From: a virus
IMG/VR virus record: IMGVR_UViG_3300031566_000227
Span: 1-32,396 of that record
Reading direction: 5' to 3' (one strand)
DNA length: 32,396 bases
Of this stretch, positions 2-22,833 are shown in pieces. The notes below the pieces were generated by a model. That model was not told where the DNA came from. It made no database searches and saw only the letters and a program-made list of their open reading frames with translations. The position numbers were made by a program, and so were the translations under genes. Numbering within the stretch: position 1 is the first letter of the stretch; each line of letters starts with the position of its first letter.

Positions 2-1255
2 GAGGCATTGGTCAAGGCTGGGATGAAGTACATCGACAAGGACAGGACATCCGTTCTGACAGAGATGGTCGAGCTGACGAAGAGGGTGGTCGAACACCTC
101 AAGGAGAACTCACGCGAGGTGACCGATGACAACCTCCTCAGCATAGCCACCATATCAGCGAACAATGACGAGGCCATAGGTAAGCTCATCTCGGATGCGT
201 ACATCGAGGTGGGGCGTGATGGTGTAGTGATGGCCGCGCTCTCTCAGGACAATGAGACCTACAGCGAGGTCACACATGGTATGAGGATCGATAGGGGCTA
301 CTCCTCTGAGATGTTCATCACCGACCAGTCGACGGATGAATGTCGGATGGACGATGTCCACATCTTGGTATCGGACGCAGAGATATCCAACCTGATGAGC
401 ATGGAGATACTGCTCGGTGACATCATCGCGAAGAAGAAGAAGCTGCTCATCATAGCGCCATGCACCCGTAACGTGACCAACACCCTCGCGGCCAACAAGA
501 TGAAAGACGTGCTGAAGGTCTGTGTCATACCACCACCCAGCTTCGGATACCGTCAGCATGAACTGATGTCCGACATAGCCGAGGCGGTAGGGGCCACCTA
601 CTTCTCCGAGAAGACGGGTGACGACCTGTCCATCATCCGCATGGAGGACTTGGGCCATGTCAAATCCATCACCGTCTCTTCCGACATGACCGTGCTTGTC
701 CATGACGAGGACGCTCCAGATACATCCGAGCGCGTCAAGGAACTCAAGAACGCAGCGAAGAAGGCCAAGAAGAAGGGCGACAAGGAATTCATAACATCAC
801 GCATCGCATCACTCAGTGGGGCAGTGGGCGTCATCCACGTAGGAGGCAACACCGACCTTGAGCAGAAGGAACTGTTCGACAGGGTGGACGATGCCATCTG
901 TGCTGTGCGCTCCGCGCTGGAGGAAGGCATAGTCGCTGGGGGTGGTGTAGCTCTGGAGAACGCAACAGAGGCGCTGCACAATGTCGACTCTGTCGTACAC
1001 AGCGTGATGTTCGAAGGTCTTCTGGCCCCGATCATGAGGATACTATCCAATGCCGATATGCGTTACGAGGACATATACACCTCGATGGACGCGGACGGCA
1101 AAGGCTACAACGTCAAGACCAAGGAGTATGGGAACATGTTCGACATGGGCATCATCGACCCACTCAAGGTCACACGTCACGCATTGCAGAACGCGGTCTC
1201 TGTAGCAGTGACGATACTATCAACAGACGCGATCCTGACAATGACAAGAGCATGA
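2..1255 (+). CDS. groEL: GroEL-type chaperonin, 5' end cut by window edge
   Basis: ATP-driven folding chaperone of the Hsp60 (group I) family. The frame is open from base 2, so the start lies outside the window; roughly the first 100 residues, including the DGTTT ATPase motif, are not visible. Family landmarks appear in the expected order: SIATISANND, RGYSSEMFI at the start of the apical domain, LLIIAP, the lid-proximal PSFGYR, RIASLSGAVGVIHVGG, DRVDDA (holding the ATPase aspartate equivalent to E. coli D398), EEGIVAGGGVAL, YGNMFDMGIIDP and KVTRHALQNA. The C-terminus stops at ILTMTRA and lacks the GGM-rich tail usual in bacterial GroEL. Its stop overlaps the next start (ATGA). It is surrounded by phage genes, so it is phage-borne rather than host. 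Identification is secure; the client proteins are unknown. Confidence 0.96.
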   Translation, partial: EALVKAGMKYIDKDRTSVLTEMVELTKRVVEHLKENSREVTDDNLLSIATISANNDEAIGKLISDAYIEVGRDGVVMAALSQDNETYSEVTHGMRIDRGYSSEMFITDQSTDECRMDDVHILVSDAEISNLMSMEILLGDIIAKKKKLLIIAPCTRNVTNTLAANKMKDVLKVCVIPPPSFGYRQHELMSDIAEAVGATYFSEKTGDDLSIIRMEDLGHVKSITVSSDMTVLVHDEDAPDTSERVKELKNAAKKAKKKGDKEFITSRIASLSGAVGVIHVGGNTDLEQKELFDRVDDAICAVRSALEEGIVAGGGVALENATEALHNVDSVVHSVMFEGLLAPIMRILSNADMRYEDIYTSMDADGKGYNVKTKEYGNMFDMGIIDPLKVTRHALQNAVSVAVTILSTDAILTMTRA

Positions 1256-1728: not shown

Positions 1729-1729
1729 T

Positions 1730-1810: not shown

Positions 1811-1830
1811 TAATTCTTAATTTCGCATCC

Positions 1831-1932
1831 ATGATCATCAACGAATTATTCCAGTGGGCAGCTATCATCGCGGTGGTACTGTGGCTTATCAGGGCGAACA
1901 AGGATATGCTGAGAGCTTCCAATCAGGAGTAA
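1831..1932 (+). CDS. 33-residue single-span membrane peptide
   Basis: ATG to TAA encodes a very small protein with one hydrophobic segment (WAAIIAVVLWLI, residues 9-20), a short polar N-terminus and a basic/polar C-terminal tail (RANKDMLRASNQE), so the tail is likely cytoplasmic. It sits between the structured element and the lipoprotein gene. No homology is recognised. Its composition resembles the second micro-ORF at 6066-6158. Small holin, antiholin or membrane-stress roles are possible, but the sequence does not decide. Confidence 0.5.
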   Translation: MIINELFQWAAIIAVVLWLIRANKDMLRASNQE

Positions 1933-1962
1933 AGCTCACAGTCGAAATAGAGAATCCATAAA

Positions 1963-2859
1963 ATGCGAAACATAATTTATGTAATCACGGCCATCCTTTT
2001 GATGGGATGCTCCAAGGAGAATCTGAGAGATGGACGCATGAGCGATGCAGAAGTCTATGAGAGATTCGTAGAATTACCCTCGCTTCATTACAAGGATTCC
2101 ACAAATATACCCCCGCTTCATTACGATAAATCAGGCTGGTCTGAGGTCAACTTGGACAGCCTCATCCAAACAGGGTTCTACGTGTGGTACAGTATTTTAC
2201 CGAGCGGTAACTTCATAGCTTATGAGGAGGGAGAGTTCGGCCCTATAACCGCCTATAATTCGGTAATGAGATTCGGGGTCACGGGATATGGGTCTTCGGG
2301 CTTTGTCGTCCCTTCAGGAGACAGCATCAGACTAGGCGTGACTCATTGGCCATCGGGATCGATAGTCGGCTCAGAGATAATCGAACTGAACTCGTTCAAC
2401 ACAGCGAGGTCATGGATACTCCGTAAGGACGTTCTGCCATTGAATCAAGGATTGGCATTCTGCACCTCGTTCAATGGCTTTGCTAACGAAGGGTTCATCA
2501 CGGGAAGGATAGACGCATTCTTCAGAGACCCACAAGGGAACTTCTTCGAGGTGGACGCATCCAACACCACTAGCTGTTTGATAACGCTCACCAACTGCTG
2601 CGAGATGTTCACAGGCGCACAGGACTACGGGGCGATAACGTTCGTCAATCAGGTCAATGCCAATGGAGACGTGTTCCAAGAATGCAGCGTGGTGAATTAC
2701 AGGTGTGACGTGTCCATCGTACATCCAGAGTTCAACGTCATATCCAACGCGTACTTCGGGAATTACAGGAGTCCATTCCAAAGCGACAACACCTGTGCTG
2801 GATTGGACAATTACATACTCCAAGACGGGGAGGTCTTGGGTGAATTTCTAAATAACTGA
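1963..2859 (+). CDS. phage-encoded lipoprotein, unknown function
   Basis: The N-terminus is a signal peptide with a lipobox: after MRN a hydrophobic stretch leads to LLMGC, with Cys16 as the lipidation site. Ser17 follows the cysteine, so there is no inner-membrane-retention Asp at +2 and outer-membrane sorting is expected. The mature part (about 283 residues) begins with a charged linker containing a short internal repeat (LHYKDS, LHYDKS). It continues as a beta-rich region with several cysteines (CLITLTNCC, CDVSIV, NTCAGL) that could form disulphides. No family is recognised. Known phage lipoproteins include receptor-blocking superinfection-exclusion proteins such as T5 Llp; that role here is only a guess. 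It lies 2 nt before the glycosidase-like gene, so the two are probably one unit. Confidence 0.8.
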   Translation: MRNIIYVITAILLMGCSKENLRDGRMSDAEVYERFVELPSLHYKDSTNIPPLHYDKSGWSEVNLDSLIQTGFYVWYSILPSGNFIAYEEGEFGPITAYNSVMRFGVTGYGSSGFVVPSGDSIRLGVTHWPSGSIVGSEIIELNSFNTARSWILRKDVLPLNQGLAFCTSFNGFANEGFITGRIDAFFRDPQGNFFEVDASNTTSCLITLTNCCEMFTGAQDYGAITFVNQVNANGDVFQECSVVNYRCDVSIVHPEFNVISNAYFGNYRSPFQSDNTCAGLDNYILQDGEVLGEFLNN

Positions 2860-2861
2860 CC

Positions 2862-3791
2862 ATGATAGTCAACTCACCACCAAGAGGTTATGATTTCAAC
2901 GACCACCTCATCGTTCCATTCAGATACGTCACCAACGGAGGGACGTGGAGCAAGGATCCACTCAACTACGCGACCGATGCACAGCTATCCGTATGGGGCA
3001 GCAACGGCTACAGCGTGGTATACTCGGTCTGTTTGCAGAGAAGCCCACAGCAGGAGGTGGATGAGATCGCCAGATACAAGAGCTTCGGCATAAAAGTCGA
3101 CAGGAGTAGGCTCGGAAATGAGGAGGATGACGGTTCGGTATTGGACAACTCGGTAGATCCTTGGGAGGCTGGATGGCAATATGCTGATGCATATGTAGCC
3201 AAGGCGGCTGCGTACAAACAAGCCATAGAGACCGCCTATCCTGATATGGAGTTCATCCTTACAGCGCCATTTCCATCCAACCAACAGACGCAAAAGCAGA
3301 CGATGAAGAGGATTGGCTGGTGCGCTAGGATAGATCAGGAACCCTTGGCGATCGGTGTCGACATGCATGTGTACGACAGATGCAACCCCATCAACAAGAT
3401 AGACATGTCTCTCGCTCCCGCGTTCGAAGGGAGGAAGCGATTCTTCTTGGAAGTCGGGGCCATACCAGTTTTCTCTCAGGACATATGGATGAGCAGATCG
3501 ATAGAAACCTTGCAGATGGTCAGAGCCATAGCAAGAGAGGGAGATGAGGTCGGAGTTCAGGTGATGGAGAACAATGTCGGTATTGGTCTCATAATGAACA
3601 AAAGCCTTACAGCTTGGGGCGACCATGTGGTGAGCATGGACTGGAGGAAGGTGGCAAAGATCTATGACAGACTGAGCGGCATCCCCTCTCCTTTCAAATT
3701 CCTTATAATCAAATTCGACAACGGTGACGAAGAGTATTGGAACGGATGGTATACCAACGCTCCAGTTGTCGGAACATACATCGACTCATGA
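2862..3791 (+). CDS. glycosidase-like (TIM-barrel, clan GH-A pattern) protein
   Basis: The 309-residue protein has motifs arranged as in clan GH-A glycoside hydrolases. RLGNE (Glu87) resembles the acid/base motif at the end of strand 4. WEAGWQYADAYVAKAAAYK follows, as expected for the helix after it. FILTAPFPS (131-139) and GVDMHVYD (165-172) resemble barrel strands, and FFLEVGA (Glu197) resembles the nucleophile strand. There is no signal peptide. The family is not identified, so a substrate cannot be given; wall, capsule or exopolysaccharide glycans are reasonable candidates. It lies between the lipoprotein gene and groES, with its stop overlapping the groES start (ATGA). A non-catalytic barrel is an alternative. 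Confidence 0.5.
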   Translation: MIVNSPPRGYDFNDHLIVPFRYVTNGGTWSKDPLNYATDAQLSVWGSNGYSVVYSVCLQRSPQQEVDEIARYKSFGIKVDRSRLGNEEDDGSVLDNSVDPWEAGWQYADAYVAKAAAYKQAIETAYPDMEFILTAPFPSNQQTQKQTMKRIGWCARIDQEPLAIGVDMHVYDRCNPINKIDMSLAPAFEGRKRFFLEVGAIPVFSQDIWMSRSIETLQMVRAIAREGDEVGVQVMENNVGIGLIMNKSLTAWGDHVVSMDWRKVAKIYDRLSGIPSPFKFLIIKFDNGDEEYWNGWYTNAPVVGTYIDS

Positions 3792-4048
3792 GACCTATAG
3801 GAAAAAAGATACTCATCGACCCTATCGTAGAGAAGGTCGAGACCAAGACTGGACTGGTTCTTTCGAAAGAGGACACAGACCAGCTCCGATACAAGAGAGG
3901 ACGCATCATCAGTACTGGAGATGAGGTGACCCCTCACATAAAGGAGGGGGACATCGTGCATTACGACACGAGGGCTGGCTACACCATGAGGATAAACGGT
4001 GAGGCGGTCACTTTGATCTCCGAAGTCGAGGTCGTTGTTGTCGAATAG
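3788..4048 (+). CDS. groES: GroES-type co-chaperonin (Cpn10)
   Basis: The 86-residue protein has the GroES layout: RPIGKKILIDPI at the N-terminus, a mobile-loop region VETKTGLVLSKE (LVL in the place of the IVL that docks on GroEL), RGRIISTGDEV, IKEGDIVHYD and a closing VTLISEVEVVVVE. The start is ATG 3788, overlapping the previous stop; longer in-frame upstream sequence lacks the family N-terminus. It presumably caps the GroEL encoded upstream, although four genes separate them, unlike the adjacent bacterial groES-groEL pair. Its last 41 bases overlap the end of the minus-strand regulator gene. Confidence 0.9.
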   Translation: MRPIGKKILIDPIVEKVETKTGLVLSKEDTDQLRYKRGRIISTGDEVTPHIKEGDIVHYDTRAGYTMRINGEAVTLISEVEVVVVE

Positions 4049-7895: not shown

Positions 7896-8153
7896 ATGGA
7901 AAAATTAGAAGATCAAGAATTGAAATCACTTAAGGATATTTCTCAAGCCATAAATGAAACTCACAGCAGGATTGCTGATCTGGCAGTAGCTCAGAATCAG
8001 ATGATATCAAGACTTCATTCCTTGTCAGATGAGAAGAACACATTGACCTCCAAGTTGGCTGAAAAATACGGAGAGGACTCAGTAATCAGCTTGGAGACAG
8101 GCGAAGTAAAAAGAAAAGAGAATGGGCAAGATAGCGGGATACCCAACGGATAA
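7896..8153 (+). CDS. small coiled-coil protein
   Basis: An 85-residue protein that is helical over most of its length (residues 1-60, with heptad-like spacing of Ile and Leu), then EKYGEDSVISLETGEVK. A small helical protein ending in an EKYG..L..ETGE motif recurs upstream of structural genes in marine phages; its function is unknown to me. ATG 7896 is preferred over GTG 7881 because the GTG is part of the TACATTTGTG promoter box. The last 32 bases overlap the next gene in another frame. Confidence 0.7.
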   Translation: MEKLEDQELKSLKDISQAINETHSRIADLAVAQNQMISRLHSLSDEKNTLTSKLAEKYGEDSVISLETGEVKRKENGQDSGIPNG

Positions 8154-9222
8154 TGACGTCCAGTTAAGCGACAAGCTCATAGGGAGTGATGTGGCAGACC
8201 AGTTCGGAGCGAAGAATCTTCAGACAAAGAACTATACCGTAGGAGACATCCTTGGGGTTTCTGGGTCACCGACCTATGTACCATACACTGGCGCTCTTGG
8301 CTCGGTGGACTTAGGTGTCTATGGCATGACCTTGACAGCTATCACGGTCAATGGCGCATTCACTGACAGCGTAGCAAGTGCTGGCACATTGAATCAGATA
8401 CTCTCTGTTGCCGCATCAGGGTTCGTTGAGTGGAAGGATCCAGCGGCCGTCAGTGGAGCCGTGCCTTATGTTGGAGCCGATCAGGACGTAGACCTTGGTG
8501 GACAGAGTTTATCTCTTCTCAACATAGATATTGCAGGAACAATAACAGACCGCAACGATTCGATAGGAACGAATGGTCAAGTGCTTGTTTCAGCGAACAC
8601 CTCAGGAACGCAATGGACGTCCGACCTTACTTTTTTGAATGAGGTGGTGACCTCTGATTTCACAGCAACAGGAACATTCAATGATGGAACCTCAACAGCG
8701 GCAACGGTTGGAGCCTTGTTAACTGGAACATCTTCTGGAGAATCACTTTGGTTCACGCCTGTAGAGGTTTTGAACAGGTCTTCCAAGGCTACTCAGTTAG
8801 CGGGTATGTTTGCAAATGATGCTGTGGTCGTGTCTCTAGGGTCGTCACTCACGAATGCATATGTCGTCTTCAACGGATCAAGGGTCACCTTCCAGCAAGC
8901 GGGTACGTATTTCATCGAATGTGGAGTCCACGCGATAGCTGATAGCACAGACCCAACTGCTGTTACTGCAGGGACAGTCGCCTTGCTCAACGGGGCGCTT
9001 ATTCAGGATGCTAAGAAAATAAACACCAATGGAGATAACCTTGTCTATCACAATGAATCATGCGTCTTGAATGTTGCAGCAAACGACTACTTCGAGTTAT
9101 GGTGCTTTAAAACAAACGGAAGCACATTCTCTCTTCGATCAGTTTCAATCACTGGAGTAACTAACATTCCAGCGCAGACCGCTATTAACTCAGCAGAAGT
9201 AAGGATAGTCAAGATTTCTTAA
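8122..9222 (+). CDS. tail-fibre protein with C1q-like head domain
   Basis: The 366-residue protein begins with an attachment-type module (YPTDNDVQLSDKLIGSDV, TKNYTVGDIL) shared with the next gene. It then has [14 protein letters not shown] repeats (about residues 50-125), typical of trimeric fibre shafts. The C-terminal region (about 215-366) has strand-rich features of a C1q/TNF-like trimeric jelly roll: FNGSRVTFQQAGTYFIECGVHA, VALLNGALIQ, VLNVAANDYFELWCF. This would be the receptor-binding tip or adhesin. It is probably a trimer. The domain assignment rests on pattern recognition. Confidence 0.75.
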   Translation: MGKIAGYPTDNDVQLSDKLIGSDVADQFGAKNLQTKNYTVGDILGVSGSPTYVPYTGALGSVDLGVYGMTLTAITVNGAFTDSVASAGTLNQILSVAASGFVEWKDPAAVSGAVPYVGADQDVDLGGQSLSLLNIDIAGTITDRNDSIGTNGQVLVSANTSGTQWTSDLTFLNEVVTSDFTATGTFNDGTSTAATVGALLTGTSSGESLWFTPVEVLNRSSKATQLAGMFANDAVVVSLGSSLTNAYVVFNGSRVTFQQAGTYFIECGVHAIADSTDPTAVTAGTVALLNGALIQDAKKINTNGDNLVYHNESCVLNVAANDYFELWCFKTNGSTFSLRSVSITGVTNIPAQTAINSAEVRIVKIS

Positions 9223-9225
9223 TAA

Positions 9226-12200
9226 GTGGCTAGGATAAAGACATATCCGATCGACCTTGTCCCCACCCTCACAGATAAGGTGGTCGGGTCTGATGTCGAC
9301 GAGAGTTCAGCAACGAAGAACTACACGGTAGGATCTATCTTATCCTTGGAAGGATCGACCACCTATGTCCCATACACGGGGGCATTAGAAGATGTCGACC
9401 TCGGATCTTACTCACTTACCCTCACAGACCTTCATCTATCAGGAAGCCTATACGATAACGTGGGGGGCACTGGATCTCTGAGCGACGTTCTATCGATAAC
9501 AGCCAATGGGGTCGAGTGGACGAGTATAGGTATCGAAGAATTCGTTCCATACACGGGGGCCACAGGTGATGTCGATCTAGGAACCCACGGACTCACATTG
9601 ACCGATATTGCTATCGAAGGATCGCTGATAGATGTATTTGGATTTACAGGAACCTCTGGTCAACTACTGTCTTCCACAGGGACTGGGGTACAATGGATAA
9701 ACGATATAGGCCCATCGAACTATGTGCCATACCTAGGAGCGACCTCCAATGTGGATCTAGGTACAAAGGGACTCAAGACATGGAATCTGACAGTATCTGG
9801 AGTCTTGAACGACTCATCAGGGCTCGGAGGGACAGCAGGGCAGATACTATCATCGACAGGGACTAATGTAGAGTGGATAGATAATTCTGGAGGCGGTGGA
9901 TTAACCCCTAGCAATGGACTAAGTGAAGTAACTGCAGGAGTTATTGGTCTTGGTGGCACTTTAACTGAAGCTACTGGAATCGTTATAAATGATCTTCTTA
10001 ATCTAAGCTTTAGTGGAGTAGGATCAAGTTTTACAGCAGATAGTAGTTTATCAGCTAATATTGGGCCTGGGGCAGTTAGCTTTATACTTTCAAACGATGC
10101 TTTCGACCAGACAAACCAATCACAATTTATACTACAAAAAAGTACAGCTTCAATATTTCATTATCTAGATACAATACCAACAACCTTTTATGTGGATGGT
10201 GGTGGAGTTAGAGTTGATTCTGGTTCAAATGCTACTTTAGGGATTTCGTTAAATCAACCAACTACAGGGCATTTTCTGATTGATAACGCAAATAACCAAA
10301 CAACATTTAAAGATCTATCTGTTACTAAAGCAGGTATTGAATACTTCGCAGATTATAGTGCTGATTTTACTGCTAGAAGCTTAGTTGATAAAAACTATGT
10401 TGACAATGCTGTAGCGGGTGGAGGAGCTGTCGATAGCGTCAATGGGTTCACGGGTATAGTCGTGCTTGATACGGACGACATAAATGAAGGGGTTACCAAT
10501 TTTTACTATACAGATGCTAGGGTGGCTGCAAATGCTGCTGTTGTCCTGAACACAGCCAAGGTCACCAACGCCACACATACGGGAGATGTAACAGGAGACA
10601 CAGTTCTAACTATAGCAGCAGGAGCAGTAGACCTCAGCATGTTGAGTGCTGGCGGCACTCCATCTATCTCCAAGTATCTGAGAGGCGACTATCAATGGGT
10701 CACCCTCCCGTCATTTGGAACGGTAACAAGTGTCGCAATAGCAGGAACTGATGGTATAGATGTGGATAGCGGAAGCCCCATCACCACTAGCGGAACGATA
10801 ACCCTCGGACTGAATAAGGCCACCACCCTCTCATTCTTGAATGTCCAAGACGGTGCGCAGGTCAATGCGGTCGATAGTGTCAACGGGCAGACAGGTGTTG
10901 TCGTCTTGGATGCCGACGATATAGATGACTCAGCGACGTCCCATAAATTTGTCACTGCTACCGACCTCACTATTTTGTCGAACACCTCTGGTGTTAACAC
11001 TGGTGACCAGACGTCCATATTAGGGATCACTGGGACAAAAGCCCAGTTCGATACCGCCCTTACAGATGGGAACTTTGCTTTTGTCGATCAGGCGAATACG
11101 TTTGCCGCTGGTTCCAAGCAGAGGGTACGATCTAGTGCTACCACTGCTGGGTTCGGTATGATAGGGGTCACTGCCGACCCGTCCTCTACTACCAATGGGG
11201 ACATGTGGTTCAGGGCAGACCTTGGACTCATGAGGTATGTAGAGAACCTTGTCACTAGGACGCTTGTTACTGAGACCAAAACTCAGACACTTACGAATAA
11301 GACTATAGACGGTTCTTCGAACACGATCACCAATGTCAGTCTCCTCACAGGGGTAACTGGAAATCTTCCAGTGGCAAACCTCAACACTGGTACAAATGCT
11401 TCTGCCTCAACTTTCTGGTGTGGTAATGGAACTTGGGCCACTCCAGCGGGTGGTGTAGGAACAGTTACTAGTGTAGGAACTGCTGGCTCGATCAATGGAC
11501 TGACTTTGACGGGTGGAACTATAACTAGTTCTGGGACTATTACGTTAGGAGGAACTTTATCTATAAATAATGATGACTGGGTTGGTACTGATTTATCAGT
11601 AGCCAATGGTGGAACAGGGGCTAGTAGTCAACTTGGTGCAAGAGCTAATTTAGGACTTACAATAGGAACAAATGTACAAGCTCATAGTGTAATTTTACAA
11701 GCTATTTCATCTGCGAGCATCAGTGGTGTCCCTGCAGATCGAATGTTCTACACTAGTGGGCTTGATGCAATCAGCTTGGCTACTATAACTGGAGCAGGAA
11801 GAGATTTACTTGACGATGCCACTATAGCTGACCAAAGAACTACTCTTGGACTTGGAAGTTTAGCAATACTCAACACTATAAATAACGGGAATTGGTCTGG
11901 ATCAGATCTTTCTGTAGCCAATGGTGGAACAGGGACTAGTACTCTGGAAGTCGATGGAATAATGGTGGGTAATGGCGGCAGTGCTGTCAAGACCTTAAAA
12001 TCTGAATTCAATCAAGCAGTAGATCCTGCTGTAAGTAATGATATAACCCAAGGATATAGTGTAGGCTCAAGATGGGTGAACACCACACTTGATAAAGAAT
12101 TCGTCTGTCTAGATACTTCAACTGGTGCGGCAGTTTGGAGAACTTCAACAGGTATTGAAAGTGTATTTGATGACCCCTCCCCACAATTAGGAGGAGGACT

Positions 12201-13644
12201 CTACACTTATGGCCAGAATATTTTTGTAGAGACAAATGACTACATAAACTTTGGGCTTGGACAATTCCTTATCAGGCATACAAGTGCTAATGTTATAGAT
12301 ATATTTTCAAATCATGATGTAGCATGGTCTGCAGCTGGAGGTACAATTGTTAAACTTGCTTTAGGAAGTACCGATGGGACTAACAAATTCCTTATAGATA
12401 ATAATACTGCAGAGAACCTTTTCTCTGTTTCTTCAGATGGAAAATTTGAGATCCCAAAGTATGGAGCAGGCAACTTCACTGGAACTTCTACTTATGGTCT
12501 AGCAGTTACTGCTACTGGAAACGTTGTTGAAGTAGCCCTTGGTGGTGGAGGAGGAGTTACTGTAGAAAATAATAGTACCCCACTTACCACTGTTGCTACT
12601 ACACTGAATTTTACAGGTGCTGGAGTAACTGCAAGTGGTAGTGGTGCTACCAAGACAATAGAGATCGCAGGTATTCCTTTAACAATATATGATGAAGGGA
12701 CCCCTTTAACACAAAGAAGCAGACTGAATTTTACAGGTGCTGGAGTAACTGCAACTGATAATGGTACAAATTCAACAGAAGTCACTATCGCAGGAGGAGC
12801 CATCGACAGCGTCAATGGACTCACTGGTGTCGTAGTACTGGACACCGATGATATAGCACAGGGTTCCACCAATCTCTACAATCAGGTACATACTGGAGAG
12901 GTGACTGGAGGAACCGCCCTCACTCTTGGTGTAACAGCCATATCCAATAAGCCGAACCTAAGCTCACTCACGGGAGCAGAGCAGATGATATTAAATAGCG
13001 GGGGGTCTTTGGTCAGTTCCAGCCTAGGAAACATAGTCACTCTTGCTGAGACGGTCTTCATAAGAAGGGATCTTACCAATGCGACCATTGGATCGGTCAC
13101 TACTGGGCATGTCCTTACAGCTACTACAGGAGGAGAAGCTTCTTGGCAAGCGCCTACACAGAGATTAAGTCAAACACTGGCGGTAAGATGGTTCTTCCCT
13201 ACAAATAATGCTTGGGTGAGCTGGTCTACGTCAGCAGCTATAGTTGGAGACTGCAATACTCAATATGGAACTGGTTCTACCCCCACCCCAAACTGGCAAC
13301 AGAGTGGGTTGTACATACCTAATGGCGCAATACTCAAGAGTATGTATTTTGCAGGAAGAGCAAACTCAAGCTTTGGTTCGGTCAAACTTTATGTGGGTTA
13401 CTATGACGCTAATACTGATGGGACTTTGATAAATAGTGATGTAGAGGCAAATTTTACAGAGATACTATCCTCTACAGTTATTAGTGATTTTGGAAATTCT
13501 GCCCTCAGAACAGCAAGTGTAAGCCTTGGTGATTTTGTAGTGTCTGGCAATAGAATGTTGCTATTCTATCTAGGATCTGTCAACAACACATCTGGCGCTC
13601 AGAGGAATATGCCATTGAATATCCATTTGAATTACGAGCTATGA
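9226..13644 (+). CDS. large mosaic tail-fibre / receptor-binding protein
   Basis: The 1472-residue protein has a GTG start directly after two stop codons. Residues 1-45 repeat the N-terminal module of the preceding gene ([28 protein letters not shown]), so both probably dock at the same site. The shaft follows with three VPYTGA/VPYLGA...VDLG repeats, three DSVNGxTGxVVLDxDDI repeats, two ANGGTG repeats of the phage-fibre type and two [10 protein letters not shown] repeats. The C-terminal about 160 residues (from WFFPTNNAW) lack repeats and look like a receptor-binding beta domain. Some internal segments are visibly AT-richer than their flanks, suggesting module exchange. It is non-enzymatic as far as can be seen. 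Confidence 0.85.
10429..10482 (+). repeat. DSVNG repeat, copy 1
   Basis: 54-nt in-frame unit encoding [18 protein letters not shown]. Diverged copies are at 10870-10923 and 12802-12855. Copy 1 marks the end of the first AT-rich cassette. Confidence 0.7.
10870..10923 (+). repeat. DSVNG repeat, copy 2
   Basis: In-frame unit encoding [18 protein letters not shown], aligned codon for codon with copy 1. Confidence 0.7.
11599..11619 (+). repeat. ANGGTG repeat, copy 1
   Basis: A 21-nt stretch encoding the centre of [11 protein letters not shown], repeated exactly at 11914-11934. This ANGGTG unit is characteristic of phage tail-fibre shafts. Confidence 0.7.
11914..11934 (+). repeat. ANGGTG repeat, copy 2
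   Basis: Exact 21-nt match to 11599-11619, encoding the centre of [11 protein letters not shown]. Confidence 0.7.
12603..12634 (+). repeat. [10 protein letters not shown] repeat, copy 1
   Basis: A 32-nt stretch encoding [10 protein letters not shown], repeated exactly 120 nt downstream; part of a 40-residue tandem unit in the fibre shaft. Confidence 0.75.
12723..12754 (+). repeat. [10 protein letters not shown] repeat, copy 2
   Basis: Exact 32-nt match to 12603-12634, in the same frame. Confidence 0.75.
12802..12855 (+). repeat. DSVNG repeat, copy 3
   Basis: In-frame unit encoding [18 protein letters not shown]. It marks the end of the second AT-rich cassette. Confidence 0.7.
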
Positions 13645-13865
13645 TAATCAGGAAGATAGCTGTAGGGCCAGACCTTAAGTCTGGAGCAATGCACTACGTG
13701 CTGGGCCAGCCTGTTCTCGATAAGACATGGTTCATACACCTCATACAGGTCAACGAAGAAGGATTCATCACTATCTGGATAGAGTCAGAAAAACAAGAGA
13801 TCCTAGCGTGGAAAAGGTTCGCTCCCTCCATGCCGATAACAATAGAGTACAAGATAGATTTCTGA
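13641..13865 (+). CDS. small conserved phage protein, 74 aa
   Basis: Begins [20 protein letters not shown] and includes a strand-rich core ([16 protein letters not shown]) ending in [10 protein letters not shown]. Small proteins with this [11 protein letters not shown] start are familiar from marine phage contigs upstream of packaging genes; their function is unknown. The start overlaps the fibre stop (ATGA) and the stop overlaps the next start (TGATG), so it is coupled at both ends. Confidence 0.75.
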
Positions 13866-14428
13866 TGCAGTCACCGTACAACTTCATAGTAAGACCAGTT
13901 GAGGGCAAGAGGTACTCTAACACCAAACGCATAGGAGGGCTTGACGTTGTGGTCAGCACCTCTGATGAAGACCATAAGTTCTCTAATAGGTATGGCGAAG
14001 TGGTAGATGTACCGCTTGGTTATGACGGGCCTATATCAAAAGGAGATATACTCATCGTTCATCATAACGTGTTCAAATTCTACAACGACATGAGCGGAAG
14101 GCAGAGGAGCGGAAAGAGTTTCTGGAAGGATGACCTGTTCCTTGTGGACAACGATCAGTTCTTCATGTACCATGACGGTAATACTTGGACTCCTCATGAT
14201 AGATATTGTTTCGTTCAACCCTTACCACCAGAGGAATCCATTATATTCAAGGGCGAATCAGAACAGCCATTGGTGGGGATCATGAGATACCCTAATGAAT
14301 ACCTGCTCAAGAAGTGCGTTAACTCTGGAGATAAAATCTCATTCAACCCCGACAGCGAGTATGAGTTCTATGTTGACGGTGAGAAGCTTTACAGGATGTT
14401 CGACCATCAGATAAACTTTGTGTTATGA
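13865..14428 (+). CDS. tandem GroES-like (Cpn10-fold) protein
   Basis: The 187-residue protein reads as two GroES-like halves. First half: NFIVRPVEG (residues 6-14), a loop region DVVVSTSDEDHKFSNR, GEVVDVP (44-50), PISKGDILIVHHNVFKFYND (56-75). Second half: RYCFVQPLPPEE (113-124), PLVGIMRYP (135-143), a GD turn (NSGDKISF, 153-160), YEFYVDGEKLYRM (166-178). Both halves follow the order RP/QP strand, loop, G-strand, GD turn, final strand. Residues 76-112 look like an insertion between the halves. It could act as a co-chaperonin variant, comparable in layout to chloroplast Cpn20, or reuse the fold for another role. The start is ATG 13865, overlapping the previous stop. Confidence 0.6.
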   Translation: MQSPYNFIVRPVEGKRYSNTKRIGGLDVVVSTSDEDHKFSNRYGEVVDVPLGYDGPISKGDILIVHHNVFKFYNDMSGRQRSGKSFWKDDLFLVDNDQFFMYHDGNTWTPHDRYCFVQPLPPEESIIFKGESEQPLVGIMRYPNEYLLKKCVNSGDKISFNPDSEYEFYVDGEKLYRMFDHQINFVL

Positions 14429-14473: not shown

Positions 14474-14752
14474 ATGGACGTAAGAAAGACCAAGGAAAAA
14501 ATCATAGAGGCAGGGAAGAAGGCGGTGGATCAACTAATAAAGGTGGCGAGGGAAGAGATAAAGAACGAGGAGGGAGGAGACCTGTCAGCCGATAGGTTGA
14601 AGAACGCTGCGGCAACAAAGAAGCTTGCGGTGTTCGATGCCTTCGAGATCCTTGAGAGGATAGAGAGGGAGCAGGACATGTTGGACAGCGTGGACAAGGG
14701 GCCGAGCCGAACTGAAACAAAAGAAGGATTTGCAGAGCGAAGAGCTAAATAG
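14474..14752 (+). CDS. probable small terminase subunit
   Basis: A 92-residue, highly helical and charged protein: KTKEKIIEAGKKAVDQLIKVAREEI, then DLSADRLKNAAATKKLAVFDAFEILERIEREQ. The same kind of small helical protein commonly precedes the large terminase in related marine phages. Size, charge and position fit a small terminase subunit or terminase accessory that recognises DNA; no helix-turn-helix motif can be pointed to with confidence. It overlaps the terminase by 23 nt in a different frame. A 45-nt gap without a promoter box separates it from the upstream gene. Confidence 0.6.
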   Translation: MDVRKTKEKIIEAGKKAVDQLIKVAREEIKNEEGGDLSADRLKNAAATKKLAVFDAFEILERIEREQDMLDSVDKGPSRTETKEGFAERRAK

Positions 14753-16943
14753 CATATATCACATCGTAGATGGTCTTGTCACAGACTCCGATAAGAGGAA
14801 GACGAACTGGCAATACGGCTATAACGAGAAGTATGACATGGTCGTCATATCCAAGGACGGGACTATCGGTGATGTCTACGAGATAAAGGGATTGAGGGTA
14901 GCTCTTCCAAGGCAGCCCAAGCATTGCTATGAAAGGTCATCTAAAAAGAAAGACCAATACTGGGAGAGAGAGGAGCTTCCAAAAGAACTATCCAAGATAA
15001 GCACCATCTTCAAGTGGAACGAGATGCCCCATGAGTTCAAGGACAAGTGGATAGACTACATAGAAGAGGAGTTCGAAAGAAGAGAGTCAGGGCATTGGTT
15101 CACCAACAATGGTGTTCCTACCTACATCACTGGCTCACACTACATGTACTTGCAGTGGTCTACAATAGACATCGGATACCCAGACTTCAGGGAGGCCAAC
15201 AGGATACTGTTCATACATTGGGAAGCATGCAAGGCAGACACTAGATCTTTTGGTCAGAACTATCTTAAGATAAGACGATCTGGATTCTCATTCATGGGGT
15301 CTAGCGAAGTGGTGAATTTATCCACCATGGCAAAGAACAGGAGGGTGGGTATACTCTCCAAGACTGGTTCGGATGCCAAGAAGACATTCACGGACAAGGC
15401 TGTGCCTATAGCCAATAACCTCCCGTTCTTCTTCAAGCCCATACAGGACGGTATGGACAAGCCTAAGACCGAGATGGCCTACCGTGTGCCAGCGTCCAAG
15501 ATCACCAAGAACAACATGAATGATTCCTTCACTGACGATCAGGAAGGATTGAACACCTCTTTCGACTGGAAGAACACGGACGACAACTCCTATGATGGAG
15601 AGAAACTCCTTCTGCTGCTACATGATGAGAGCGGCAAGTGGCTCCTACCGAATAGCATACTTGCCAACTGGAGGGTGACCAAGACCTGTCTCAGGCTAGG
15701 TAGTAAGATCATAGGTAAGTGTATGATGGGATCCACTTGCAATGAACTGAAGAAGGGTGGAGATAACTTCAAGTCCCTCTACATGGATTCGGATGTATCC
15801 AAGAGAAGCAAGAACGGCCAGACCAAGAGTGGACTCTATTCCTTATTCATTCCGATGGAATGGAACATGGAAGGGTTCATCGATAAGTACGGCATGCCTG
15901 TACTCAGAACTCCTGAAGAACCTGTGATCGGAATAGACGGAGAGATGATAACCAAGGGGGCCATAGATTTCTGGGAAGATGAGGTGGAGTCATTGAAGAA
16001 TGACTCTGACGCATTGAATGAATTCTATCGTCAGTTCCCAAGAACAGAGTCCCATGCATTCAGAGATGAGAGCAAGGCGTCCTTGTTCAACCTCACCAAG
16101 ATCTACCAGCACATAGACCACAACGACTCTTCCATAATGGAACACCATGTGACAAGAGGAAGGTTCTACTGGAAGGACGGGAATGATTCAGAAGTGGCAT
16201 TTGCCCCTGATAGGAACGGTAGGTTCTTTGTGTCATGGACTCCGCCAAGGAACATGACGAACCTCAAGTCCAAGAAGGGAGGTCAGTACTATCCAGTCAA
16301 TGTACACATAGGCGCATTCGGATGTGACTCGTATGACATCTCTGGCGTAGTGGGAGGAGGCGGATCCAACGGTGCGCTGCACGGTCTGACAGGATTCCAT
16401 ATGGCCGATGCGCCTGTCAATGAATTCTTCTTAGAGTACATAGCAAGACCTCAGACCGCAGAGATATTCTATGAGGATGTTCTGATGGCCTGTGTATTCT
16501 ACAGCATGCCGATACTTGCGGAGAACAACAAGCCTAGGTTGTTGTACCACTTCAAGAACAGAGGGTATAGAGGGTTCTGTATGAACAGGCCAGACAAGCA
16601 GTTCACCAAGTTATCCAAGACAGAGAGGGAGTTGGGTGGTATACCGAACACCAGCGAATCCGTAAAGCAAGCTCACGCAACAGCTATAGAATCCTACATA
16701 GAGGAGTACATAGGCATCATGGATGATGGCGAGATAAACAACATGCCGTTCCAGAGGACACTGAAGGACTGGGCCAGATTCGACATCAACAACAGGACAA
16801 GGCATGACGCCTCGATAAGCTCAGGTCTTGCATGCATGGCGGTCAGAAAACATATCTACCAACCCGTTAAGAAGTCATCTGAAATAAAAGTTAACTTTGC
16901 GAGATACCGAAATAACGGAACAGTCAGTGAGATAATAAGATGA
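14730..16943 (+). CDS. terL: terminase large subunit
   Basis: The packaging motor ATPase/nuclease, 737 residues. The ATPase half has an adenine-binding and Walker-A region around residues 180-215 (LKIRRSGFSFMGSSEVVN, GILSKTGSDAKKTF; not a canonical GxxxxGKT), Walker B KLLLLLHDESGKW (D299-E300) and a coupling segment GKCMMGSTCNEL (about 329-340). The nuclease half has VNVHIGAFGCDSYDISG (D533), probably one catalytic acid, and PILAENNKPRLL (about 594-605). The only start in frame after the upstream stop (14661) is TTG 14730, apart from a CTG at 14712; the first ATG would remove 36 conserved-looking residues. The overall look matches terminases of crAss-like and marine flavobacterial phages. Confidence 0.85.
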   Translation: MQSEELNSIYHIVDGLVTDSDKRKTNWQYGYNEKYDMVVISKDGTIGDVYEIKGLRVALPRQPKHCYERSSKKKDQYWEREELPKELSKISTIFKWNEMPHEFKDKWIDYIEEEFERRESGHWFTNNGVPTYITGSHYMYLQWSTIDIGYPDFREANRILFIHWEACKADTRSFGQNYLKIRRSGFSFMGSSEVVNLSTMAKNRRVGILSKTGSDAKKTFTDKAVPIANNLPFFFKPIQDGMDKPKTEMAYRVPASKITKNNMNDSFTDDQEGLNTSFDWKNTDDNSYDGEKLLLLLHDESGKWLLPNSILANWRVTKTCLRLGSKIIGKCMMGSTCNELKKGGDNFKSLYMDSDVSKRSKNGQTKSGLYSLFIPMEWNMEGFIDKYGMPVLRTPEEPVIGIDGEMITKGAIDFWEDEVESLKNDSDALNEFYRQFPRTESHAFRDESKASLFNLTKIYQHIDHNDSSIMEHHVTRGRFYWKDGNDSEVAFAPDRNGRFFVSWTPPRNMTNLKSKKGGQYYPVNVHIGAFGCDSYDISGVVGGGGSNGALHGLTGFHMADAPVNEFFLEYIARPQTAEIFYEDVLMACVFYSMPILAENNKPRLLYHFKNRGYRGFCMNRPDKQFTKLSKTERELGGIPNTSESVKQAHATAIESYIEEYIGIMDDGEINNMPFQRTLKDWARFDINNRTRHDASISSGLACMAVRKHIYQPVKKSSEIKVNFARYRNNGTVSEIIR

Positions 16944-19375
16944 AGGATGTAAAGCCAATCATAAAAAGTGCATCGTTCCCAAATGCATTTGCATCCGACT
17001 CAGAGAAGAAGACTCAGGAGTATGGGCTAACCATAGGACAAGCTATTCAATACGAATGGTTCAAAGGTGAAGGCAGCAATTGTAGGTTCTACAGCCAGAG
17101 AAGAGAGTTCCATGAGAAAAGACTGTACGCATTAGGCAAGCAACCTATCAGTAAATACAAGAACGAGCTTGCTGTAGATGGGGATTTATCCTATCTCAAT
17201 CTTGACTGGACACCAGTCCCTATCATCCCCAAGTTCGTTGACATCATCGTCAATGGTATGTCAGAGAGGGTCTTCTCTGTGAAAGCATACGCTCAGGACG
17301 CTATGTCCCAATCGAAGAAGACCAAGTATCAAGACATGATCGAAGGCCAGATGATAGCCAAGCCTATGCTTGAGACCATCGCTGAGAACACTGGCGCCAA
17401 CCCATTCAGCGTAGACCCTGAGCAGCTACCGAATACTGACGAGGAGTTGTCGCTGTACATGCAGCTCAACTACAAACCAGCTATAGAGATAGCCGAGGAG
17501 ACGGCCATCAACACAGTCCTTGACGAGAACGATTACCAAGCCATCAGGAAGATGGTCGATTATGACATCACTGTCATAGGTGTTGGAATGGCAAAGCATG
17601 AATTCCAGTTAGGCGCTGGAGTTGTTGTCAATTATGTAGACCCAGCCAATGTGGTGTACAGCTACACAGAGGATCCGAACTTCAAAGACTGTTTCTATTG
17701 GGGAGAGGTCAAGACGGTTCAGGTCAATGAACTCAAGAAGATAAACCCATCGCTCACCAATCAGGATCTCGTAGAGATATCCCAATATGGTAGGTCATGG
17801 TACAATCAGTATCAAAGGAATGATGTCTATCAGAACGACATGTTCTCTGATGATGTGTGTACTCTACTCTACTTCAATTACAAGACCACCAAGACTATCA
17901 CCTACAAGAAGAAACTTTCCGAGGATGGCACTGTGAGGTTCATCGAGAAAGATGATACATTCAATCCTCCTCAGGAGATGATGGATGATGCTGGTTTCGA
18001 AAGAGTATCCAAGACGATCGATGTCTGGTATGAGGGTGTGATGGTTCTTGGAACAACGGTCATCCTCAAGTGGGAGATGTCGAAGAACATGGTCAGACCA
18101 AAGTCTGCATCGCAGCATGCTCTATCCAACTACGTTGCTTGCGCACCTAGAATGTACCATGGAGTCATAGACTCTACCGTTGGTAGGATGATGCCGTTCG
18201 CAGACCTTATCCAGATGGTGCACCTGAAGCTACAACAGGTCACCTCCAAGATGGTTCCAGACGGTATCTTCTTGGATGCCGATGGTATCAACGAGGTGGA
18301 CATGGGTACTGGTAACGCATATACTCCAGATGACGCATTGAAGCTTTACTTCCAGACTGGTAGCGTTGTAGGTAGGAGCTATACGCAGGACGGTGAGTTC
18401 AATAATGCTAGGGTTCCGATCACTCAACTGACAGCCTCCTCTGGAATGGGTAAGGCACAGATGCTGATACAGAGCTACAACCATTATCTCGACCAGATCC
18501 GAACGGTCACTGGATTGAATGAAGCCGTTGACGCAACGACTCCGAACCCACATGCATTGGTAGGTCTTCAGAAGCTTGCGGCCCTAAGCTCCAACACCGC
18601 TACAAGACACATACTTGAAGGTGGTCTAAGGATCTATAAAGGACTGGCAGAAGCCATCACCTACAGGATAGCCGACATACTTGAGTACTCTGACTTTGCA
18701 GAAGAGTTCATCAATCAGGTAGGTAAGTACAATGCAAGCATCCTCAGGGATATAAACGATCTCTACATCTATGACTTCGGTGTGTTCATAGAGATATCTC
18801 CAGACTCCGAGCAAAAGGCGGAGCTTGATAACAACATCAATATCGCTCTCAAGCAAGGGAACATAGACATCGAAGATGCCATAGACATCAAGGAGATAAA
18901 GAACATCAAGCTTGCTAATCAGTTGATAAAACTGAAGAGGAAGACCAAGCAGGATCGACAGGAGAGACTGGCAATGCAGCAACAGGCCATGGCCGCACAG
19001 CAGGGAATGCAGCAGCAGCAGATGAAGGCTCAGTCGGATATGCAGACAATGCAAGTAGAGCTTCAAGGCAAGATGCAATTGAAGCAAGCCGAGGTCGCAT
19101 TCGACATAGAGCGAGTGAGGAACGAAGCCGACCTCAAGTTGATGTTGATGCGTGAGGAATTCGAAATGAACATGCAGCTCAAAGGGTTGGACTTGGAATC
19201 CCTCAATCAAAGGGAGGACAAGAAGGAAGAGAAGAAATCCGAAAGGATAAGCCAGCAGAACACTCAGCAATCAAAGCTTATCAATCAAAGGAAGAACAAC
19301 CTTCCGCCACTTAGCTTCGAATCCAACGAGGACTCACTGGATGGTTTCGATCTAGCTGAATTCGAACCTAGATAA
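16940..19375 (+). CDS. portal protein
   Basis: The 811-residue protein follows terL with an ATGA overlap and precedes the scaffold and capsid genes, the usual place for the portal. The core (about residues 60-640) has portal-like features: VPIIPKFVDIIVNGMSERVF, AIEIAEETAINTVLDENDY, VVNYVDPANVVYSYTEDP and TTPNPHALVGLQKLAALSS. Residues about 670-775 form a long Gln- and Met-rich coiled coil (QQQAMAAQQGMQQQQM), typical of the internal C-terminal barrel or tail of large portals. The last 35 residues are acidic. Twelve copies would form the head vertex ring. The identification rests on position and motif style. Confidence 0.8.
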   Translation: MKDVKPIIKSASFPNAFASDSEKKTQEYGLTIGQAIQYEWFKGEGSNCRFYSQRREFHEKRLYALGKQPISKYKNELAVDGDLSYLNLDWTPVPIIPKFVDIIVNGMSERVFSVKAYAQDAMSQSKKTKYQDMIEGQMIAKPMLETIAENTGANPFSVDPEQLPNTDEELSLYMQLNYKPAIEIAEETAINTVLDENDYQAIRKMVDYDITVIGVGMAKHEFQLGAGVVVNYVDPANVVYSYTEDPNFKDCFYWGEVKTVQVNELKKINPSLTNQDLVEISQYGRSWYNQYQRNDVYQNDMFSDDVCTLLYFNYKTTKTITYKKKLSEDGTVRFIEKDDTFNPPQEMMDDAGFERVSKTIDVWYEGVMVLGTTVILKWEMSKNMVRPKSASQHALSNYVACAPRMYHGVIDSTVGRMMPFADLIQMVHLKLQQVTSKMVPDGIFLDADGINEVDMGTGNAYTPDDALKLYFQTGSVVGRSYTQDGEFNNARVPITQLTASSGMGKAQMLIQSYNHYLDQIRTVTGLNEAVDATTPNPHALVGLQKLAALSSNTATRHILEGGLRIYKGLAEAITYRIADILEYSDFAEEFINQVGKYNASILRDINDLYIYDFGVFIEISPDSEQKAELDNNINIALKQGNIDIEDAIDIKEIKNIKLANQLIKLKRKTKQDRQERLAMQQQAMAAQQGMQQQQMKAQSDMQTMQVELQGKMQLKQAEVAFDIERVRNEADLKLMLMREEFEMNMQLKGLDLESLNQREDKKEEKKSERISQQNTQQSKLINQRKNNLPPLSFESNEDSLDGFDLAEFEPR

Positions 19376-20496: not shown

Positions 20497-21912
20497 ATGG
20501 CAGGACAAGTAGATGCAATCCCAACCTTTGGATTGACACCAGCCCCACAACAAGTTGCATTGGGCAGCAACTACATAACCAACTTCGACTTCTTGAGTCA
20601 GTATCTTCCAGATACCTACGAGAAGGAGTTCGAACGATATGGTAACCGATCGGTAGCTTCATTCTTGCGAATGGTGTCTGCCGAACTACCTTCTGAATCA
20701 GATCTCATCAAGTGGACTGAGCAAGGAAGGCTGCACACCAAGTATACTAGCTGTACATCTTCCTCATTAGTTAACTCTGACACAGCCACTATAACTGTAG
20801 CTGACACTGGTGATCCAGCGTTCTCTGCGGACAATGGTATCGCTATCAGGGTCGGTCAGACCGTTCTTTTATCTGGAACAGCAGGAGTGAACCACGCAGT
20901 TGTCTATGGCGTAAACCTAGGAAGCAACACATTTGATGTTGCCTACTATGAGGCTGGCGGCCAAGTCTTTGCACAAGGAGCCACGGTATCTGTCTTCGTC
21001 TACGGTTCGGAGTTCAAGAAAGGAACCAATGGCATGCAAGGAAGCAATGAGGCAGTGCCTGATATCTTTGAGGTCTCTCCTATCATCTTGAAGGACAAGT
21101 ATGCGGTCAGTGGATCGGATATGGCTCAGATCGGATGGGTGGAAGTGACCACTGAGAATGGAGCGACTGGATACTTATGGTATTTGAAGTCCGAGCATGA
21201 GACCCGTCTCCGCTTTGACGACTACCTTGAGACATCCATGATCGAGGCGGTTCCAGCGGAACTTCTTTCTGGAGCTATTGCCGCTACAGGAGACGTGGGT
21301 AACAAAGGAACAGAAGGTGTGTTCCATGTTGTTTCCACCAGAGGTAACGTGTGGTCAGGAGGTAATCCTACCACGCTTGCTGAATGGGATCTAGTAGTAT
21401 CCCGTCTTGACAAGCAAGGAGCAATTGAGGAGAACGCGATCTTCAACGATAGGGACTTCGGTTTCGATATCGATGACATGGTGGCTTCTCAGAATGCGAA
21501 CTACGATGGTGGTACGTCTTGGGGACTATTCAATAACGACAAAGAGATGGCGTTGAACCTTGGATTCATTGGATTCAGAAGGGGTTACGACTTCTACAAG
21601 ACGGATTGGAAGTACCTGAATGATCCTACCATGAGAGGCGGATTGACTGGCGCAGCAAAGATCAACGGACTTTTGGTTCCAGCAGGAACCACTACCGTGT
21701 ACGATCAGGTACTGGGCAAGAATGCCAAGCGCCCATTCCTTCACGTCCGTTACCGTGCTTCCGCAAGGGAGGATCGTAAGTACAAGACGTGGATGACTGG
21801 ATCCGCTGGCGGAGCAAGCAACTCAGATCTCGATGCAATGGAAGTCAACTTCCTTTCAGAGAGAGCTATCTGCACGTTGGGAGCTAACAACTTCTTCCTC
21901 TTCACGGACTAA
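20497..21912 (+). CDS. major capsid protein (HK97-fold type)
   Basis: A 471-residue protein in the expected position after portal and scaffold. The N-terminal region includes NFDFLSQYLPDTYEKEFERYGNRSVASFLRMVSAELP, a segment I associate with capsid proteins of crAss-like and marine flavobacterial phages. Residues about 85-170 look like an inserted beta domain (TATITVADTGDP, VGQTVLLSGTAGV, ATVSVFVYGSEF). The later part (PIILKDKYAVSGSDMAQIGWVEV, DDYLETSMIEAVPAELLSG) fits the P-domain and long helix of an HK97 fold. It ends LGANNFFLFTD. An A-rich leader without Shine-Dalgarno precedes the ATG, and a strong terminator follows. Confidence 0.85.
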   Translation: MAGQVDAIPTFGLTPAPQQVALGSNYITNFDFLSQYLPDTYEKEFERYGNRSVASFLRMVSAELPSESDLIKWTEQGRLHTKYTSCTSSSLVNSDTATITVADTGDPAFSADNGIAIRVGQTVLLSGTAGVNHAVVYGVNLGSNTFDVAYYEAGGQVFAQGATVSVFVYGSEFKKGTNGMQGSNEAVPDIFEVSPIILKDKYAVSGSDMAQIGWVEVTTENGATGYLWYLKSEHETRLRFDDYLETSMIEAVPAELLSGAIAATGDVGNKGTEGVFHVVSTRGNVWSGGNPTTLAEWDLVVSRLDKQGAIEENAIFNDRDFGFDIDDMVASQNANYDGGTSWGLFNNDKEMALNLGFIGFRRGYDFYKTDWKYLNDPTMRGGLTGAAKINGLLVPAGTTTVYDQVLGKNAKRPFLHVRYRASAREDRKYKTWMTGSAGGASNSDLDAMEVNFLSERAICTLGANNFFLFTD

Positions 21913-21983: not shown

Positions 21984-22271
21984 ATGGCAGCTAAGAAAGA
22001 TTCCAAGTTAGTAAAGGCAGGAGTGTCAGGCTACAATAAGCCAAAGAAAACTCCATCACACCCGACCAAATCACATGTTGTTGTAGCTAAGAAAGGCTCT
22101 GAGACAAAGCTTATCCGCTTCGGGCAACAAGGAGTGAGTGGGGCTGGAAAGAACCCTACATCGGAAAAGGACAAGAACAGGAAGAAGTCTTATTACGCCC
22201 GTCACAATGCTCAAGACTCTAAGCCTGATAAGCTATCAGCTAGGTATTGGTCACATAAAGTAAAATGGTAA
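21984..22271 (+). CDS. small basic phage protein, 95 aa
   Basis: A very basic protein beginning MAAKKDSKLVKAGVSGYNKPKKTP, with KSHVVVAKKG, KLIRFGQQGVSGAGKNP and a closing KLSARYWSHKVKW. The IRFGQQGV...G...YW..KVKW pattern is common in small proteins of marine phages; its function is not known to me. Its position between capsid and neck genes suggests a DNA-binding or virion role. ATG 21984 is chosen because a longer frame would include the promoter box. Its 3' end is part of a repeat duplicated 308 bp downstream. Confidence 0.8.
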   Translation: MAAKKDSKLVKAGVSGYNKPKKTPSHPTKSHVVVAKKGSETKLIRFGQQGVSGAGKNPTSEKDKNRKKSYYARHNAQDSKPDKLSARYWSHKVKW

Positions 22272-22278
22272 TGGCAAA
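22223..22278 (+). repeat. 56-bp direct repeat, copy 1 (with 15-nt dyad)
   Basis: Identical to 22531-22586 except at one base (22250 G, 22558 A). It covers the last codons of the 95-aa gene and the start of the next gene. It contains the perfect dyad CTGATA-AGC-TATCAG at 22225-22239. Confidence 0.9.
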
Positions 22279-22531
22279 AAAGACAACCACCACCCGCAAT
22301 GCATCCTCTGGAGTCATGAAGACGACCATGAGGACAAGTAAGAACGGCACTGAAAAAGTGAAAGAGACAATGTTGACTGGCCCGAACAGGGGGTCGACGC
22401 TCATCACAAAGCGCACGCCATCGACATACAAGAGCAAGATGGTAGAGAAGGCTTCTGGTAAGAAGTACGGCGTAGACAAGATGAAGGTCAACAAGGCGGG
22501 GGTCGTAAAGAACAAGGCTAGGGGCTATTAG
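22271..22531 (+). CDS. small basic duplicated protein A, 86 aa
   Basis: A Lys/Thr-rich protein (MAKKTTTTRNASS, TSKNGTEKVKETMLTGPNRGS, YKSKMVEKASGKKYGVDKMK, ending KARGY). It is paralogous to the next gene over its full length, sharing MAKK, K-T-T, KETM, TKRT, YKSK-VEK, GK-YGVD and RGY. No known domain. The basic charge suggests nucleic-acid binding or a virion component. The start ATG overlaps the previous TAA (TAATG); an ATG 6 nt upstream is equally conserved. Confidence 0.75.
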   Translation: MAKKTTTTRNASSGVMKTTMRTSKNGTEKVKETMLTGPNRGSTLITKRTPSTYKSKMVEKASGKKYGVDKMKVNKAGVVKNKARGY

Positions 22532-22586
22532 CCTGATAAGCTATCAGCTAGGTATTGATCACATAAAGTAAAATGGTAATGGCAAA
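22531..22586 (+). repeat. 56-bp direct repeat, copy 2 (relic of an upstream gene end)
   Basis: Second copy, offset 308 bp. Read in the frame of the 95-aa gene it still encodes PDKLSARY, then TGA replaces TGG, then SHKVKW and a stop. It is thus a non-coding remnant of that gene's 3' end and serves as leader for duplicate B. Dyad at 22533-22547. Confidence 0.85.
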
Positions 22587-22833
22587 GAAAGCAACTACAG
22601 TTCGCAAAGGCGAATATGGAAATATCAAGACGACTACTAGTATCAACAAGAAAGGTACTGTCAAAAGCAAGGAGACTATGGTCTCTGGTACTTTTAAAGG
22701 TTCTTCGTTGAAGACTAAGAGGACTGCTTCAGGCGACTATAAAAGCAAGTCGGTAGAGAAGTCAAATGGAAAGACATACGGTGTAGATAGAACGAAGACA
22801 AAGAAGGGCGTTACTAAGACACGAGGATACTAA
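22579..22833 (+). CDS. small basic duplicated protein B, 84 aa
   Basis: Paralogue of the preceding gene (MAKKATTVRKGEYGN, INKKGTVKSKETMVSG, KSKSVEKSNGKTYGVDRTK, ending TRGY). It is diverged through most of the coding region but shares the same 56-bp start region. Function unknown. The start is ATG 22579, with an alternative 6 nt upstream, as in copy A. Confidence 0.75.
   Translation: MAKKATTVRKGEYGNIKTTTSINKKGTVKSKETMVSGTFKGSSLKTKRTASGDYKSKSVEKSNGKTYGVDRTKTKKGVTKTRGY

Follow-up and report, generated by a model that had tools for sequence, protein, structure and literature searches.

A gene just ahead of the large terminase gene in a viral genome fragment (IMG/VR record IMGVR_UViG_3300031566_000227, positions 1 to 32,396; 'the window' below denotes this whole stretch of 32,396 nucleotides) encodes a 187-aa protein that is, in its predicted structure, two head-to-tail Cpn10 domains in one chain. 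From its fold, loops and gene company, we infer with a probability of roughly 0.75 that this doubled protein serves as a second, roofless, gp31-like co-chaperonin for virion proteins. The gene family is not new: it corresponds to PHROG 13932, public phage records already label its members 'co-chaperonin GroES/cpn10', and 'Chaperonin cpn10' has been listed as a core gene of the Pervagoviridae (PMC8776804). What appears new against the literature searched is the doubled architecture, the match to Cpn20 and the pairing with a single-domain GroES. The initial annotation knew of no established doubled case in a phage, and this stands for the doubling, no published description of a phage tandem GroES having been found in a literature search that left most subscription papers outside its reach; the family itself is already annotated as co-chaperonin GroES.

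The 74-aa gene in front ends in a stop codon that shares bases with the ATG of this gene (TGATG). At least 597 contig stretches in IMG/VR encode a relative, and the relatives share the start and length of the window protein; the best 80 of them are 63–69% identical to it over practically the whole length. By this conservation, it is a real gene under selection. Direct scans of the window protein returned zero Pfam and zero NCBIfam matches; against PHROG 13932, 'co-chaperonin GroES', it gave E 6e-21, residues 1–178 aligning with positions 1–190 of the 200 in the profile.

Fold and sequence of the two halves

AlphaFold2 modelling of the full protein, with 52 aligned relatives as input, produced a nearly all-beta model (mean pLDDT 83.6, pTM 0.76), for which the best solved structure in Foldseek was Chlamydomonas Cpn20 (7ekq chain R; E 2.8e-5, 209 columns). 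The same chain ranked first in VIA-align (Z 10.5, 158 residues, rmsd 4.2), residues 1–187 of the model lying on residues 11–193 of the chain, and the resemblance to plastid Cpn20 raised in the initial annotation thus extends over the whole length. The VIA-align rows that follow Cpn20 are single Cpn10s placed on half 2 (Z 7.2–8.9), including T4 gp31 at Z 7.8. As the match list of the full model barely tests half 1, this half (residues 1–108) was predicted alone (pLDDT 86.5), and its 13 best rows were all Cpn10 or Cpn20 (Z 6.2–7.9, 59–82 residues aligned), with 81 residues at rmsd 3.1 against 8wuw_a. Cpn10s therefore head the comparisons of both halves, and the match is not confined to one of them. 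The GroES-like domain of zinc alcohol dehydrogenases, considered as another identity for half 1, reached Z values of at most 5.6, beneath every Cpn10 row, and was rejected. A Z just below 8 is indecisive taken singly; in our judgement, it is the agreement of the top rows together with the sequence evidence that decides for a predicted Cpn10 fold in half 1. The earlier reading of two GroES-like halves in tandem is upheld by the models, while its boundary, set at residues 112/113, is better placed at about 105/108.

By sequence, half 2 is a Cpn10 domain. In relatives, it passes the Pfam Cpn10 (PF00166) cut-off, as in phi18:3 (8.5e-8), phi38:1 (2e-6) and the contigs L110 (4.9e-6) and L109 (7e-6), and the Pfam Cpn10 matches of relatives are limited to this half. 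The Cpn10 HMM check proposed earlier consequently succeeded in half 2 of relatives only, the window protein falling below the gathering cut-off for PF00166, which is a detection threshold and not a biological criterion. Profile–profile comparison with hhalign, taking 26 single Cpn10 domains as reference and 300 column shuffles as null, scored half 2 at 46.8 (probability 95.5; shuffle maximum 22.4, n=300) and half 1 at 26.8 (probability 38; shuffle maximum 21.6, n=300). The half 1 match is colinear, extending from the first to the G-D strand, and rises to a probability of 58 when Pachyviridae are added to the profile; the sequence link of half 1 to Cpn10 is weak. When the profiles of the two halves were compared with each other, no similarity was detected (probability 1.5–2.4), which rules out a recent internal duplication: either the duplication is old, or the halves were joined from separate origins. 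A weak profile match to a designed alphaRep (E 1.8e-4) contained no single stretch with E below 7 and was set aside as noise.

GroES is a heptamer, and its mobile loops bind GroEL. In the model of the doubled protein, two low-confidence loops, one per half (residues ~21–40 and ~121–135), lie at the GroES mobile-loop position. The mobile loop of single-domain phage GroES reads KTESGLLLS and similar. At this place in half 1, elemo-like phages have SGLVL or NGLIL, phi18:3 has SGLEL, and the clade of the window mostly has GG(I/L)(D/E)(F/V), with GGLDV in the window itself. In half 2, phi18:3 has SLIYIP and phi38:1 NGLRV; the clade of the window has only (S)(I/Y)I(F), a form with a non-canonical tripeptide that reads SIIF in the window. 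A G-hydrophobic-x-hydrophobic motif stands out in half 1 of elemo-like phages and can be recognized in both halves of phi18:3; the short, non-canonical half 2 loop of the window's clade suggests that one half may not contact GroEL there. The roof segment measures 13–15 aa in half 1, 10–11 aa in most single-domain phage GroES and 19 aa in cellular GroES. Judged by this segment, half 1 is without the roof hairpin, as are the phage's own GroES and T4 gp31, which is known to be devoid of roof loops (PMC6318259). A His-His-Asn (HHN) motif in half 1 is the family's most conserved spot outside the Pachyviridae and has no GroES counterpart.

Among known systems, Cpn20 of chloroplasts and apicoplasts is the closest, with two head-to-tail Cpn10 domains in about 190–200 aa, the best full-length structural match and, in plants and algae, a coexisting single-domain Cpn10. 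It differs in that its sequence similarity to the phage protein is low (12–15% in structural alignments), in lacking the hairpin insert and HHN of phage half 1, and in the late-gene context of the phage gene. The phage doubling is probably independent of the Cpn20 duplication; being a phage gene outside plastid descent, it is not Cpn20 proper and would be at most Cpn20-like in its working. T4 gp31 is likewise a phage co-chaperonin without roof loops that matches half 2, but is single-domain and homoheptameric with a longer mobile loop, and T4 is not known to encode a second GroES. The single-domain phage GroES of PHROG 3188, also present in the window, has the Cpn10 fold, no roof and a G-hydrophobic-x-L mobile loop, but comprises one domain and is encoded by a separate gene closer to groEL. 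Annotated PHROG 13932 members (phi18:3, phi38:1, Calle, elemo and Panino) share the length class and the place before terL; their annotation is silent on two domains, and the window protein differs in having no Pfam-level similarity. A 304-aa viral protein in BFVD (A0A516L046) matches the model over 217 columns and may include an additional domain or a GroES unit beyond the two seen here.

Gene neighbourhood and pairing with a single-domain GroES

The doubled gene belongs to the virion-morphogenesis cluster, where terL and the portal gene come shortly after it, and is far from groEL and groES, which are part of another gene cluster (Table 1). The neighbouring terminase and the presence of groEL with a separate single-domain groES in the same genome, both claimed from the sequence beforehand, are confirmed at the positions listed.

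Table 1. Features of the doubled gene and its surroundings in the window
Feature	Position	Strand	Remarks
groEL	8..1255	+	5′ end lost at record start
Separate single-domain groES	3788..4048	+	86 aa; PHROG 3188; roof segment absent
74-aa gene	13641..13865	+	stop overlaps start of doubled gene; relatives have a comparably small ORF there
Doubled Cpn10 (tandem GroES-like) gene, probable co-chaperonin	13865..14428	+	187 aa; PHROG 13932, predicted structure
Half 1, residues 1–105	13865..14179	+	predicted Cpn10 fold; extra hairpin insert after G-D strand
Mobile-loop region of half 1, residues 20–42	13922..13990	+	TKRIGGLDVVVSTSDED...; low model confidence
HHN motif of half 1, residues 66–68	14060..14068	+	top-residue frequency 0.98 in family
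Half 2, residues 108–187	14186..14425	+	predicted Cpn10 domain
Mobile-loop region of half 2, residues 120–136	14222..14272	+	LPPEESIIFKGESEQPL; short; conservation lowest in the clade of the window
92-aa small helical protein, between doubled gene and terL	14474..14752	+	candidate small terminase subunit
Terminase large subunit (terL)	14730..16943	+	PHROG 6681, E 2e-175
Portal protein	16940..19375	+	PHROG 6547, E 7e-146
Virion structural protein	20497..21912	+	probably major capsid protein; PHROG 13704, E 1e-98

Several other features of the surroundings were observed. Three genes (158 aa, a 298-aa lipoprotein-like ORF and a 309-aa ORF; window 1252–3791), none with a Pfam match, part groEL from groES, two genes that abut or overlap each other in MW202828 and elemo; accessory genes seem to have been inserted here. 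Repeated VPYTGA..DVDLG modules are common to two neighbouring putative tail-fibre genes (8122–13644). In the structural cluster, a basic 107-aa protein is followed by two small basic paralogues in tandem (88 and 86 aa; 22265–22531 and 22573–22833). A separate helical protein of 92–103 aa precedes terL in the window, MW202828, phi18:3 and Gundel; it is missing in elemo, Panino and phi38:1, where terL has about 140 extra N-terminal residues. This may represent a terS gene versus a terS–terL fusion (loci concerned: window 14474–14752, L002 18540–21170, L085 8549–11185 and L086 8582–11221), and a test of homology between the small protein and the terL extension gave no sequence support.

Relatives found in searches that included IMG/VR and GTDB were confined to phage records, contigs of viruses and metagenome-assembled genome (MAG) contigs, the last accounting for all 12 matches among GTDB genome contigs; with the Panino protein as query, no relatives were found in IMG/VR. 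Four MAG loci, L178 (CP070801.1), L177, L180 and L183, bear labels such as Aenigmatarchaeota 'chromosome' and Aliivibrio and are probably mis-binned or wrongly joined phage contigs. The annotated relatives comprise phi18:3, phi46:3, phi13:2 and phi19:3 of the Pachyviridae, the Cellulophaga phages Calle and phi38:1 of the Pervagoviridae, the elemo Flavobacterium phages, Maribacter phage Panino and Podoviridae ctfjg026 (MW202828). In all of them, terL and portal closely follow the gene, with at most one small gene intervening.

Among the 30 records that hold the doubled gene, two of which represent the same phi38:1 genome, 23 also encode a separate single-domain GroES, accompanied by GroEL in 22 of these 23. 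In the seven records without single GroES and GroEL, the contigs stop 2.1–9.1 kb ahead of the doubled gene, and in most of the remaining records the single GroES lies about 7–20 kb upstream of it; the absence is likely contig truncation, albeit not proven for the three contigs extending some 9 kb. All records of sufficient length have both the doubled gene and a separate single-domain GroES. Four complete Pachyviridae genomes and the phi38:1-like contig G017 have both lids and no GroEL, so the two lids co-occur more strictly than either does with GroEL; in the related Gundel phage, neither a Pfam-detectable lid nor GroEL was found. This linkage was counted over related phages, which makes for few independent events and a pattern only. 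The single GroES of elemo is on the opposite strand to the doubled gene. The groES of contig G008 contains in-frame stops, and the groEL of G008 and G009 is in two pieces, which may be due to sequencing error, insertion or decay.

A probable second co-chaperonin and its alternatives

The gp31 protein replaces GroES for the folding of the T4 capsid protein (PMC6318259), while plastid Cpn20 and Cpn10 form functional mixed rings, homo-oligomers with an even number of domains also being able to work (PMC5780408, PMC3542282). By analogy, the domains of the doubled subunit would occupy places in a GroEL-capping ring, the partner being the phage-encoded GroEL or, where the phage has none, that of the host, and this lid would widen the cage or adapt it to virion proteins, e.g. 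the capsid protein, as gp31 does; the probable major capsid protein of the window is a possible substrate. Subunits of two domains cannot by themselves total seven, so such a ring would need a single GroES and might consist of three doubled subunits and one single GroES, a composition already suggested for chloroplast Cpn20/Cpn10. A mixed seven-domain ring, which we put forward tentatively, best accounts for the unfailing company of the single GroES. A comparable caution, somewhat short of even odds, applies to the fuller proposal that an asymmetric, roofless lid of three doubled and one single subunit arose independently of chloroplast Cpn20/Cpn10, tuned to virion proteins and acting with phage or host GroEL. 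Two observations weigh on the other side: the doubled gene is away from groEL and groES, although adjacency could be expected of a dedicated lid, and chloroplast and apicoplast Cpn20 are active in vitro with no single partner (PMC3542282), which means that such a partner is not obligatory.

In a different arrangement, the doubled protein would cap GroEL as a homo-oligomer, a trimer or tetramer of six or eight domains with one site or domain to spare, as is reported of Cpn20 homo-oligomers and GroES concatamers, and the single GroES would act earlier in infection or on a different set of substrates. Cpn20 homotetramers and concatamers of six to eight domains do function with GroEL (PMC5780408, PMC3542282), and the doubled gene sits in the structural cluster with the single GroES elsewhere, on the opposite strand in elemo, so that the two lids may be made at different times. 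We consider this arrangement less likely than the mixed ring, though quite plausible; it leaves unexplained why no sufficiently long record is without the single GroES, even where GroEL is absent.

The initial annotation had offered either a second co-chaperonin or a reuse of the fold in packaging or assembly, and the first is favoured because motifs of the GroEL-binding loop survive, in several branches, and the single GroES accompanies the doubled gene wherever this can be tested. That the protein has lost its GroEL function and now stands in for the small terminase subunit, serves as a scaffold or forms part of the virion is less likely, even though the gene is always just before terL in annotated relatives and is a Pervagoviridae core gene beside structural genes (PMC8776804), HHN is a strongly conserved non-GroES feature, and the half 2 mobile loop is reduced in the window's clade. 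The small-subunit slot is already fitted by the separate helical protein in the window, MW202828, phi18:3 and Gundel, and by the extended N terminus of terL in elemo, Panino and phi38:1. The doubled protein was itself rejected as a small terminase subunit, as it has no helical DNA-binding or oligomerization fold, the model being nearly all beta with Cpn10 as best match. In phi18:3, the doubled protein (gp096) bears no virion MS/MS label, while neighbouring genes are labelled; methylation tables of free phi38:1 virions include GroEL and not the doubled protein (PMC13288928), which carries little weight either way. A lid for some other ring complex, e.g. the ClpP protease, suggested by the closest solved structure (7ekq) showing Chlamydomonas co-chaperonins on ClpP, is very improbable, as neither the window nor the inspected annotated relatives showed a clp gene and the linkage is to GroES and GroEL.

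Doubled co-chaperonins are known from plastids, where an even number of domains on a seven-fold barrel is a long-standing puzzle. The phage case would be a second instance, with a conserved single-domain partner, and, beyond T4 gp31, may be another way in which phages reshape the GroEL cage. For annotation, it means that genes of the PHROG 13932 type are not ordinary GroES. Cultured, tractable phages carry both lids (Cellulophaga phi18:3 and phi38:1; Flavobacterium elemo), making the idea of a mixed ring directly testable.
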